A program made the position numbers and the translations under genes. A stretch of 64,000 nucleotides of DNA from Dermatophagoides farinae. Its lineage: Eukaryota > Arthropoda > Arachnida > Sarcoptiformes > Pyroglyphidae. The stretch is taken from assembly GCF_024713945.1 (NCBI RefSeq), contig NC_134679.1:4345001-4409000 (forward strand), read 5' to 3'. Under the pieces are notes generated by a model. It made no database searches and was not told the DNA's origin. It saw only the letters and a list, made by a program, of their open reading frames with translations. The first letter of the stretch is position 1. Each line of letters begins with the position of its first letter. This document shows positions 7,601-17,409 of this stretch, piece by piece.

Positions 7601-10600
7601 ATCTTCTCAAAATCAACATCTACATCCTTCAACTTCTTTTCACCATCATCAATCGTATTCATGTCCAAACCAAAGTGAACGCGGGCTAATCCCTCAACAT
7701 GATCAAACAAATAACATTCAAAGTCATCGACCACAACCGCCTTTTTCCTATCATCAATATCAATCTAAGCAGCAGCAGCAATCATCATCATCATCATCAT
7801 GGATGGATCAACAACAACAAAATTCTTTTTCATCATTATCTGAAAATGTCATAGATAATTTCAATCATCATCAACAATCAATATTGGATGAGCAATATGT
7901 CCAACCAACACGTATCAACTCGCAGCATTCTAATGTGGCAATTACGGATTCAATGTTATTTTCAATGAACAATAATAATAACAATAAAATTATTGGACAA
8001 TGTGAGACTGAAATTGTTAAAAATCCATTCGATGATCTTGATGATCCATTACCGACAACGTCCTCTTCATCGAATCATTTATCGATTAAGTCGAATGATG
8101 ATGATGTGGAAAAGGTTGCACCTATCCGTATTTCATTAACAAAAAATTCAATGTTTCATTGTTCATCTGCGGCTACACAATCGATTTCAACGCAACAAGA
8201 ACAAGAATTGCAATCACAATTAATGAAACGAAAACGTTTGAATTTCTCTGCAAATCCACTGAGCGACAACGATGATGATAATGCTGTTTATTCAGGTGAT
8301 GATGATTCCAATGAAAGTTCCTATTCAACTCCATCAAGTTTCTATGATGATGATGATGATGATAGTTATGAAGATGATCGTGGATCATATGTGATAAACA
8401 AAAATGGTGGAAATAAACGGCGAAAACATCAACATAATGGTAATAATTTTCATTTTTTTATGTCTAAATCATCTTTGAATAACAGTATTCATACAGATAC
8501 CTCGAGAAAATCAAATCATTTCCTTAAACGTCAACAATATACGTTAACTGGCAAGCCAAAATTTACCGAATCAATAATGATGGATTGCCTAAATACAGCT
8601 TTAATCAACGATAATGATGATGATATCAATGATGAACTTTTCAATAATTTGGATTTCTATGAGATGATGATGATGATGATGATGATGATGATAACAGTGC
8701 TTTGAAAAAAATATCAAAAGAATCTCAAGAACAACAGCAAGAAGATACACCAAAATTACCCAAACTTTTACTGAAACGTTTGAATACTGATGATCATGGT
8801 TTTAAAATTATTCAAAATGATGATGAAATTGAAAAAGAAATTGAAATGAATAATAATCAAAAACCTAAATCGGAAACTGTAAAAAAATTAACCATTCGTC
8901 TTTCTACTAATGGTGAAGCAAGTATTGATCATGATGGGGATAATAGTGTTGAAAAGTTTATTTGTAATAAACAAGTCGAACAGATTTGTGACTCAAAAAC
9001 TGAGGATACACAAATTATTACAACTGATGTCAAATCTATCGATCAAATATCCGATGATAAAGATAATAACTGTTGTCATCAAGTCCTAGATCCCACAGAA
9101 GTTTTAGTTGATCATTCCAAACAACATGTTTTTGAAAATGATGATATTGATAATTCAACAACCGAAGCAGTGACTTCTAATCCTCTAACGTCTATTTTGA
9201 ATACAGAACCAGTGGATGAAAATCCATTATTTCGAACGCCATCACCACCCCCGGCATTCGATCATTCACTCATTAATTCGACCATTCATCCATCATCATT
9301 ATCATCATCATCTGCACACCAACATTTATCGTCAGTTGAATCAATATTACCAATAAATTGTTTGGATACAGCAAAACTTATATCCGATAATGAACAATTT
9401 TCAGCTATCAATTCTATCATGAATCTTGATGATTTTGAACGTACCGAATCACCATCGCAGGAAATTGAAATTAATCCATTGATTTCTAATCAATCAAAAA
9501 ATCTTGTTGATGATTCAAATAATTCAGACAATGTAAATGATCAAAATGAAGACAATTGTATTATAGGAACTCAAGAAGAAATCTCAGAACAGAGCACGGA
9601 TTTAATTAATAACAAAATTGAAAATATTTCAAAGTCTCCCAAAAATACAGAAATTGAAACAACTACTGAATCATTTGTTTTGCAAGAAGACCAAACTAAT
9701 GAAACCAATATCGAATTATCAGATGACAATGAAAACAATGCCGTAATGATTGTAACAGATTCATGTAAACAACAACAGCTCAATAAAGATTTGATAGATA
9801 CTGATGCATCTGAGGTGATACGACAGTTGGACATGAAAACGCTCCCACCAAATCCAACAGAAGAATCAATACCACTAACACCACATTCTTCGCCACAACA
9901 CATCCAATCTACTGCGAATTCTATTTTAATTCCAAATACTACTGCAAACACATCAACTGCATCAGTTTCAATGCCGACTCCGATTCAATCGATTCCACAA
10001 CAATTTACCGAACCGCAAATTAATTCTTTGAATATTCAACAACCACCGCTTGAACTACAACCAAATTTTCCACTGACAAGACCAGTTATGATTTCACAAA
10101 CATCAGTAACAAAACCTTTGCAGCAGCCTTTATTAAATTCAGTTCAAATTCAACATTCAAATCCTTCGAGTGTAATTCCCCCACATCAACAACAGCATCT
10201 ACAGCCACGATTGCCACTGTTCCAGTTGCCATCTAATTCTGCCATTCGATTGTTCACTCCTTCAGTGGATCCTCAAATTCAACATCCCCCATCGGTTCAT
10301 CCTCATCACAATGCCCGTCAGACTTTCTTATTCCAATCAGCCGGACAAAATTTAGGCTTTCATACACAAACACAACAGCCCCAATTCATGATTCGTAGCC
10401 CATTTATTCCTACACAACATCAACCATCTCTACAACATCCACAAATGATTAGAACACAAGCACCGAATGGTTCAACTATCAATCTTATTCTTCCTAATGC
10501 TAATGCACATAATCCTTATGGATACACCGCTCGGCCACCTCCTCAAGCTAGTGCTGCATTAATAAATCCAGCCTTTTCCAACTCAATCACTCAACCGATG

Positions 10601-13797: not shown

Positions 13798-16700
13798 TCA
13801 ATTTTTTTCTCGTTTCAATCGAATAAACATTGTTATATACACCATGCCAGCTAGTATAAGATTATAGATGATTAAATGATAGATTTCATGATAATAACTA
13901 TCATGTGTTTCGGACAGTTCCCAATATTGAAGTATAAATGCACGGCGATCATTCGGATTTTTTCCGATGCCCATAAATCCGATCAATTTTTGTTCATTTT
14001 CTAATTCTTTATCCATTAATTGTGTTTGATTATAAGTGGTTGCATATATATCTACTAATGTTGTAACCGAATCTATCCAATCTGGTCGTGATTGATTCAT
14101 CGCTTGAATTTGTTGTAATTCTTGTTGAGTCTGAAAAAAACAACGATCAAATCCATATGTAGCTATCATTATTGAATTCATTGATGGCTTTAGGAATGAC
14201 AGGTTTGACAGGAATACCATTACACTGTTCATTTGTGAAATAAGTTTAAAATAACCAGAAAACACTAATACGGGTACCAGTATAAATGTCATACCAAATA
14301 CTGCTTGTACTTGGCTTCCATAGAAAATTGTTCCAAGCATCATTCCTACAGAAAAAACAAAAAAAATTAATTCATTATGCGAAATAATAAATTTTCATTC
14401 ACCAATAAATTGTCCAACCAATGTGATCAGACAACAAGGCAAAATAGTAAAATAGATACGATCCCAATGGTCAAATATTTGTCCGGTACCACGATGCACA
14501 GCCCATGTAAATATACTTGTCGATATCATCGTGAATGGTAGTTCACTAATTGTTTTGGCTGCAAAATATGTCCATATGGTATAGCTATAATTGTTATATT
14601 CACGACGAAATACATAAATTTCATCTGGTATGGTTATTATCAACGCAAGCATAGAATTATATAATGCCACAATATTCAACAATAGCAAAACAGATAGATT
14701 TTCATGTACAAGCGTTGAATGTTCTTCCATTATGTCCAAAATATCTTCAATTTTTGCATTCCAAAGAACATATTTTGTCCCACATGTCGATATCTGACCA
14801 ATGTCATCGCCATATAACATGATCAAAAATATGGCCATAAATGTCAACGAAGGAATGCGAGTTTTTAAACTGAATGGATTACGATAATTGCAAATAAAAC
14901 ATCTCCATAATACTAGCCATGTACAAAGTGCCAGCGATCTATTTGGAAAAAATTTAGAGAAAAAAAGAGCATCATTGGGTAACATTGATGAATCGGCCGT
15001 CCTATGTAGCCCATATAAATTTTGATTGAATCTTCCTCATGGAAGGGTCAATAAAGCTTTTTCACCATTTTCAGGTTTCTAACCCCACCCACTTCCGCTA
15101 GAGAGAGACACGTCACTTTTTTTCAAATCTCTGCAAATCGCTCCTGAACAGCCACCACTTGGAAAAAAATGTCAATTTGCGTATACCTCTTCGCTGTTAG
15201 GAGTGACAATTTTTTGCCCTTTGACCTCTAGAGGCTGGAGTTATCAAATTCATATGACATGATTCTTGAACCTTGTGGTGCGACGTATAATTGTTCGAAG
15301 TTTCACAAAAATATTCCAAGTGGTGGCTGTTCAGGAGCGATTTGCAGAGATTTGAAAAAAAGTGACGTGTCTCTCTCTAGCGGAAGTGGGTGGGGTTAGA
15401 AACCTGAAAATGGTGAAAAAGCTTTATTGACCCTTTCATGAGGAAGATTCAATCAAAATTTATATGGGCTACATAGGACGGCCGATTCATCAATGTTACC
15501 CAATGATACTCTTTTAAATACAATCGGAAACCTGTACCTTTGATCTCCAAGATGAGCTCGTTTCACAGCTTCACGAAGCGAATTCATTTCAACTTCATTA
15601 AAATCGTCAGAAAAACGTTTTTTATTCATTTCATTATTATAATGTGATAATGTTTGCAAACTTTTATTTCCAAAATCACCGCTTGCCACTTCGAGAATAT
15701 AATCCGATAGACTTGTATACATTGGACATTTTAAACCAATATCTTGCAATATTTGTGTCAGATCATTAGGGTGACCCTGAAACAATATGGATCCTTTACA
15801 TGATAATATGATTAGATTATCAAATAATGCAAAAATACGTGCACTAGGTTGATGAATAGTTGCTACGATCGCTATGGCTTTTCGCTAGAAAAATTTATTA
15901 AAGACAATTTTGAAAAAAAATCCAACTAAATTTGAACGATACTCACTCGTTTGGTCAACGATTTGAGATTATTCATAATTTGATAACCGTTTACACTATC
16001 CACACCGGTAGTCGGTTCATCCAACATGAGTATATCTGAATTGAAAACCAATTCTATGGCGATTGAAACCCGTTTGCGTTGTCCATTGCTACATCGTGAT
16101 ACAGCAATATCAGCCATTTCGGTTAAATATAATCGTTCCATAACACTATTCACTACTTTTTCATGATTTAAATAGTATCGTGCAGCATTTCGTATTTTCG
16201 ATGCGAATAGTAATGTTTCTCGTACTGTTAATTTCTCATGTAAATGATCGAATTGTTCAACAAATCCGATTCGTACTGAATTCAAACCATTGACAAGGAT
16301 ATCACCACTGTTTTCTTTTCGAATATGTATGGGTAAAAATCCAGCAATACAATTCAAAAGAACTGTTTTACCACAACCGGATGGACCCATGATACCAGTC
16401 ATCTGTCCACTACGGAACATTCCGCTAATGTTGTTCAATATGGCTCGTCTTGATCTTTGTTTCTTTTTAGTTGAATTTTTTTCAACTGAATCGTTTTTTT
16501 CTGCTTGAACATTTGCTGGATAATAGATGACATTACGCCATATGATTTCGAATGCTCCAGCTGTTAAATTTGATGACGGTGCATCAGTATTTTCCGCAGA
16601 TACTTCAATCCTCATAAATGACTCACTAGATGGGATTGCTAGCGAAATTTTATCTTCATCCTGCAAAATCGGTTCTTGGATATTATCTGCTTTACCGTTT

Positions 16701-17409
16701 GATTCTAATGATGGATTTTTGTTGAAAGAGGATAAAGATGTTCTATTTTGCAGATTTTTAATTGCTTTTTCAATCTCCGATTTTTCTTCATCTTCATTCA
16801 CATGGTGAAGAATTGTTTGTTGTTGTTGATTATTGTTGAAATTGTTTTCATCATTGTTTCGAGCAATGGAACCGATTCCGTTGCTCATATCAGAATTTAC
16901 ATCAGCAGTTTTAACATTTCGTCGGAACAAATTACCTTTGGGAAATTTAACTTTATTTGTGGTTAAATTTTTTAAACTATCCATTGAATGGTGAAGAGAA
17001 ATTGTTGAAAAATCAAATGATAAATTAGCCACTTGTGAATTTTGTGGCTTCAATTTCGACAATGAAAATTGTTTTAAGGGAGTTAATGTTCTTGTCAATC
17101 GACTTTGTTTGAAAGATTCACTAGAATTTGAAGATCCTTTTATTTTCGCATTAGGTTCAGCTGTTTGATTCAAAACATCAGCACCAGTATTTGTCGATAG
17201 TTTTCGTACTCGATTTGAGTTTTCAATATTGGAATCTTCTTCGCTATCGGTAGAAGAATCAGATTCTGAAAGTGATAGAAATTTTTGTTCAATTCAAAAT
17301 AATATCATATATATGAAAAACAGTTACCCGATGTATCGCTGTCCCTATTATCGACTTCTACTTCTCGGGAATCTTGATTATTCTCAACGTCTTTTTCACG
17401 TTCGTTCAT
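13798..17409 (-). CDS. ABC transporter G family half-transporter
   Basis: Membrane ATPase of the white/ABCG type, normally working as a dimer to move lipids, pigment precursors or xenobiotics; the substrate here is unknown. Exons on the minus strand: 17328-17409, 15947-17265, 15538-15884, 14403-14938, 13798-14345, giving 943 residues. Introns are 62, 62, 599 and 57 nt, all GT-AG, and all junctions keep the frame. Residues 1-270 are a Ser/Asn/acidic extension, unusually long for a half-transporter of 600-700 residues. The ATPase domain shows Walker A GPSGCGKT (321-328), Q-loop VEQFDH, signature CSNGQRKRVSIA (from 419), Walker B ILMLDEPTTGVDS (about 439-451) and H-loop TIHQPSA with His478. Exons 4 and 5 encode the six-helix ABC2 membrane domain, including the typical YFAAKTISELPF and the FSGYF segment. 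The signature departs from SGGE/SGGQ. The third intron contains a long inverted repeat. Confidence 0.93.
14939..15537 (-). other. Third intron of the ABCG gene, almost filled by an inverted repeat
   Basis: Donor AAAG|GTACAG and acceptor CCAAATAG|ATCGCTGG on the minus strand. Splicing restores a split Arg codon: HLGDQ-R-SLALCTW. At 599 nt it is about ten times the size of the gene's other introns (57-62 nt), and nearly all the excess is the inverted repeat plus its loop. The upstream frame reads into the repeat and stops at 15453. Confidence 0.85.
14963..15515. repeat. Near-perfect inverted repeat (about 194-202-nt arms, 149-nt loop)
   Basis: The left arm 14971-15164 is the reverse complement of the right arm 15314-15507, with one mismatch (15042 against 15436). 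The match continues outward after one more mismatch to 14963 and 15515. The loop is 15165-15313. The arms are clearly richer in G+C than the surrounding DNA. The outer ends read ATCATTGGGTAAC and its complement. No direct target-site duplication is seen; instead the flanks themselves are inverted (GAG and CTC). Options are a foldback or MITE-like element, or an inverted duplication. The near-identity implies recent origin or ongoing homogenisation. Confidence 0.93.

Follow-up and report, generated by a model that had tools for sequence, protein, structure and literature searches.

A near-perfect inverted repeat in an ABCG-type gene of Dermatophagoides farinae as a probable internally deleted Spy-type DNA transposon

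The locus raises the question of how a long inverted repeat came to lie within an intron of a transporter gene of the mite Dermatophagoides farinae, and whether it represents a mobile element, a source of hairpin RNA, or an error of assembly. The repeat is very probably a non-autonomous, internally deleted copy of a DNA transposon of the Spy group (PHIS superfamily), with long terminal inverted repeats (TIRs) and insertion at AAA^TTT without target-site duplication (TSD), as judged from the sequence. The PHIS superfamily unites PIF/Harbinger, ISL2EU and Spy. Transposons of Spy type are known, and the family of the copy described here was matched to no named one.

The inverted repeat and its host intron

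The two arms of the inverted repeat (14963-15164 and 15314-15515 of the window, i.e. the whole 64-kb stretch of DNA analysed) were 202 nt each, 99% complementary and separated by 149 nt, with two mismatches at positions 14970 and 15042. The facing arms and the 149-nt gap were as described in the initial annotation, while its count of one difference over 194 nt is replaced by two over 202 nt. The other inverted repeats reported in the window (arms at most 5 kb apart) reached at most 54 nt with 70-80% complementarity and were mostly simple repeats, and for this reason the 202-nt arms are not attributed to chance. With a GC percentage of 42 in the arm and 37 in the loop against 30 in the window, the arms were indeed richer in G+C than the host DNA, as had been claimed.

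The outermost 4 nt of each arm (AAAA/TTTT) were assigned to the target site and not to the element, which accordingly covers 545 bp (14967-15511, GAGCATC...GATACTC), a delimitation that rests on family matches and on the compiled family ends. The same compilation placed the left target half in a run of seven A (14960-14966) and the right target half in TTTT (15512-15515), both on the plus strand. The element contained no coding sequence.

The inverted repeat is situated wholly inside a 599-nt GT..AG intron (14939-15537, minus strand), whose adjoining exons join in one open frame, so its placement entirely within an intron was confirmed, with splicing predicted from the sequence. When the element is subtracted, 54 nt of intron are left; another intron of the same gene (15885-15946) is 62 nt long. 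The element is presumably carried as part of the intron and spliced out. The host gene (13798-17293 for the part examined, minus strand) encodes an ABC transporter of ABCG type, a label based on the domain order in Pfam (ABC_tran followed by the ABC-2 membrane domain) together with the initial annotation; the last piece of the gene (13798-14394) scored under the Pfam cut-off (21.7 versus 26.9 bits).

The dispersed family and its insertion sites

A 571-bp query around the window copy, searched against the genome (62.4 Mb, 22 contigs), returned at least 38 matching pieces, which were grouped as the window and at least 17 other places, and a 1.4-kb relative used as query returned at least 68. The genome search with the arm, proposed earlier as a check, thus revealed a dispersed family, and by sequence comparison the inverted repeat is a mobile element belonging to it. 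Seven of the 17 other places, all on contig C7, matched the inner segment only, within related larger repeat units, and were therefore not counted as independent insertions; the comparison of these units covered the seven places except C7:1988856 (L013).

Related repeat units were observed on C7 at about 0.55-0.67 Mb (L014, L015, L017, L021, L022, L049, L052, L053) and at 1.99 Mb (L044). They contain a segment like the inner TIR of the Spy family of the window, and L015 repeats itself at 2.56-kb spacing with 90% identity, which suggests an array-like repeat that was either captor or donor of Spy sequence.

The anatomy of the element was resolved by two relatives, L011 on C3 and L010 on C7, which are 1.36 kb each, reported as 100% identical over 1372 bp, and located in flanks unrelated to each other. 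Each has TIRs of 483 nt with 97.5% identity. In comparison, the window copy consists of 198 nt from one TIR (202 nt with AAAA) and 347 nt from the other (351 nt with TTTT), and the break point between the two parts falls in an A run. The left arm (14967-15164, plus strand, 198 nt, or 202 nt with AAAA) corresponds to the outer part of one TIR and was 81-82% identical to the TIRs of L010 and L011, and the right arm (15314-15511, minus strand) corresponds to the outer part of the other TIR. The 149-nt “loop” (15165-15313) in turn represents the inner part of the right TIR, being 89-93% identical to the same part in L002 (C10), L010 (C7), L011 (C3) and L012 (C2, over 128 of the 149 nt), whereas the remaining loci gave 83-89% identity or a partial match only. 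Among the matches listed, the C10 copy came nearest to the window copy when the right part was compared in full (87% identity), and pieces elsewhere with 92-93% identity extended over only 102-142 nt; on these values, the matches listed include no nearly identical sister copy.

The almost identical arms could also have been produced by assembly, if one arm had been falsely duplicated. This has next to no probability, as the arms differ at two positions, the order of arm, loop and arm is that of the two TIRs in relatives elsewhere, and both outer ends adjoin AAA/TTT; the artefact was rejected on these sequence grounds.

The family ends read roughly GRSYATCATYGGGTAAC, and AAA preceded 8 of the 14 recovered ends, at a background AAA frequency of 0.066. 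The six other ends were preceded by TAA (three), AAT (one), and AGC and AAG (one each, at two degenerate ends). In the window, the target site reads AAAAAAA|...|TTTTAAAT, which places the insertion between AAA and TTT. A script scored TSDs of 4-12 nt while letting the boundaries shift by as much as 4 nt, and those of 2-3 nt were judged by eye in the flanks. No TSD of 4-12 nt was present at the window copy, in agreement with the initial annotation, nor at L010, L011, the C10 copy or L034, and none of 4 nt or more at L063, L064, L065 or L066. The flanks had also been described as themselves inverted, which is correct to the extent of AAA...TTT.

The missing TSD had been taken to weigh against a transposon. 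The opposite conclusion is favoured here, since AAA/TTT flanks without TSD are the published signature of Spy and transposase-bearing elements with such ends exist in the same genome. Spy transposons insert in AAATTT with no target duplication (PMC4482050), and a further source gives AAA and TTT as flanking most Spy elements, about 60% of the insertions of cgSpy of Colletes gigas as occurring in 5'-AAWTT-3', terminal repeats as ranging from 5 to 691 bp across the group (467 bp in cgSpy), and Spy as present in five orders of Arachnida (PMC11304231). The family of the window resembles Spy elements such as cgSpy in its AAA/TTT flanks without TSD and in its long terminal repeats, which measure 483 nt in two relatives and are shortened to 198 and 347 nt in the window copy. 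A DDE transposase is carried by other, Spy-like elements of the mite genome, whose terminal repeats are not recognisably homologous to those of the window family. Unlike cgSpy, the window copy has an internal deletion and is non-autonomous, and no cognate transposase was found among the fetched regions. No report of Spy transposons in mites was found among the literature matches listed.

Short, non-coding, dispersed elements with inverted repeats are also typical of ordinary MITEs or foldback elements of another superfamily, e.g. Mutator, hAT, or PIF/Harbinger with TWA duplication, and the window copy shares with MITEs its terminal inverted repeats and intronic position. Such an assignment is very improbable: a TSD of 4-12 nt was lacking at the four two-ended copies of the family (window, L010, L011 and C10), and the flanks were AAA/TTT. 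The window copy further differs from MITEs in the low number of family copies (a lower bound) and in consisting entirely of terminal-repeat sequence. A MITE with a TSD of 4-12 nt was rejected, no such duplication having been found.

An unoccupied site of the AAATTT type was recovered in one case only, at the rearranged locus L012 on C2, where the element lacks its right end. The 153 bp to the left of this element end in AAAA; an exact repeat of them follows 814 bp onward and directly abuts TTTC, giving the occupied and unoccupied pair AAAA|GGCTATC versus AAAATTTC, with AAAATTT as the unoccupied site. A search with the left flank of L010 returned no unoccupied site, with only one short match elsewhere.

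As an observation of its own, the left flank of L012 recurs exactly over 153 bp (1158-1310 and 1972-2124) beyond the truncated copy and ends at the AAAA target half, and this repeat could be a product of interrupted repair after excision or insertion.

A genome search with the end pattern, allowing up to one mismatch, resulted in 74 forward and 51 reverse matches, whereas the reversed control gave 19 and 15, respectively. Twelve places matched without mismatch, ten of them known places of the family and two new (C2:2458433 and C6:4088106); the new places had no similarity to the family beyond the end pattern.

For the Spy-type origin, the following course of events is proposed. The element would have been mobilised in trans by a DDE transposase and inserted into an AAA^TTT site of an intron of about 54 nt, the target remaining unduplicated because of the Spy target rule. 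An internal deletion, either before or after insertion, would have left 198 nt of one TIR and 347 nt of the other, and due to this deletion the shortened TIRs would then face each other as a hairpin. Mobilisation in trans, the timing of the deletion, and splicing are the inferred parts of this scenario.

Spy-like transposases in the same genome

A search of the genome for DDE_Tnp_4 returned eight matches, and seven surrounding regions were fetched. Two of these regions contained an element with both terminal repeats and an open frame. The element L034 on C1 (4.07 kb) includes a 717-aa open frame with DDE_Tnp_4, and has repeats of about 0.75 kb with 90% identity and the ends AAA|GGGTATC...GATACCC|TTT. 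L035 on C8 (4.15 kb) includes a 789-aa open frame with the same domain, repeats of about 0.47 kb with 86% identity, and the ends AAA|GGGTACC...GGTACCC|TTT, which may alternatively be read at shifted boundaries with a possible 6-nt duplication TTTCAA. By end letters, target flanks and DDE_Tnp_4 domain, both elements appear Spy-like.

Short relatives of L035 were identified at six places, picked from 29 transposase pieces. The four with both ends were 1.32-1.36 kb long with repeats of 465-499 nt, and all six retained a 129-134-bp piece matching the transposase gene of L035. These short derivatives with long repeats indicate that elements built like the window copy are produced in this genome. 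At the ends of L034, L035 and the relatives of L035, AAA was scored in 13 of the 14 cases, and the fourteenth (L062), whose scored position was 2 nt off, reads GCCC|TTTC.

No source of transposase for the window family was recognised among these elements: L034-L042 held nothing that meaningfully matched the TIR of L011 (best E-value 0.03), the repeats of L034 and L035 had no match in L011, and no transposase with TIRs homologous to those of the window family was found among the fetched regions, which are part of the 29 transposase pieces.

Further observations concern loci on C10. Two direct copies of a shortened Spy-like transposase gene, 92% identical, are located in L040 (3107-5274 and 5423-7585); they comprise 541 and 534 codons from stop to stop and have no inverted-repeat pair, and the 64 nt at 7661-7724 are similar (77%) to the terminal repeat of L034. 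The interior of L011 shares a 26-29-nt match with the stretch upstream of these copies, which is suggestive only. The locus L002/L043 (C10:1833865-1835428) has Spy-like ends and a middle part with a 268-codon open frame, gag-like in appearance and matched by no Pfam family, and possibly represents retrotransposon sequence captured inside a Spy-ended copy.

Hairpin potential and biological meaning

The RNA of the intron (596 of 599 nt) gave a predicted fold of -406.5 kcal/mol, against -138.7 kcal/mol (sd 7.0) for 100 shuffled sequences, with a stem of about 200 bp, as expected from the long double-stranded transcript foreseen in the initial annotation. The element could thus be a transposon remnant and also a hairpin-RNA locus, at which Dicer would cut the intronic stem and the resulting siRNAs would silence members of the family. 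Such a double role is quite unlikely, although several features are compatible with it. The predicted stem is very stable and near-perfect, as in loci of endo-siRNAs, and stands on the presumably transcribed strand of the intron; RdRP genes were detected in the genome (six matching pieces at four places); and in D. farinae the control of transposons relies on siRNAs of about 24 nt that Dicer produces (PMC5805368). Piwi-domain pieces numbered 22, with Argonaute and Piwi clades counted together. Like the RdRP genes, a homologue of the group-2 mite allergens agrees with a mite as host; this homologue, the best of seven matches to that family in the genome, was 44% identical to Der p 2 and Der f 2 (47 of 108 and 48 of 109 residues), a value which, unless a closer paralogue is among the other six, would speak against a Dermatophagoides dust mite.

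Moreover, family copies share exact 21-mers with the element (at 115 positions in L043, 89 each in L010 and L011, 36 in L012, and fewer in others), so in principle a hairpin could target members of its own family. Eight of the 20 loci shared no 21-mer with the element, i.e. L014, L015, L017, L021, L022 and the transposase loci L034, L035 and L040, and the hairpin would therefore not hit the transposase sources examined. The relatives with 483-nt repeats, if transcribed, could fold likewise, and nothing marks the window copy as selected. In contrast to hairpin-RNA loci, the structure of the window copy is explained by its dispersed mobile origin; a hairpin-RNA role would not be needed to account for the anatomy and is unproven. 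The more specific model, in which the intronic deleted Spy copy would serve constitutively as a hairpin source for the siRNA pathway of the mite and silence the remaining, recently active family members, is quite improbable.

For the reading as a deleted Spy-type element, the missing TSD is no evidence against transposition, as the AAA^TTT rule of Spy accounts for its absence. A mite genome with Spy-like elements is hereby documented, some of them with an open transposase frame, others being short derivatives in which the long repeats are kept. If it is true that the hairpin yields small RNAs, the locus would be a natural example of self-silencing by transposons in mites.
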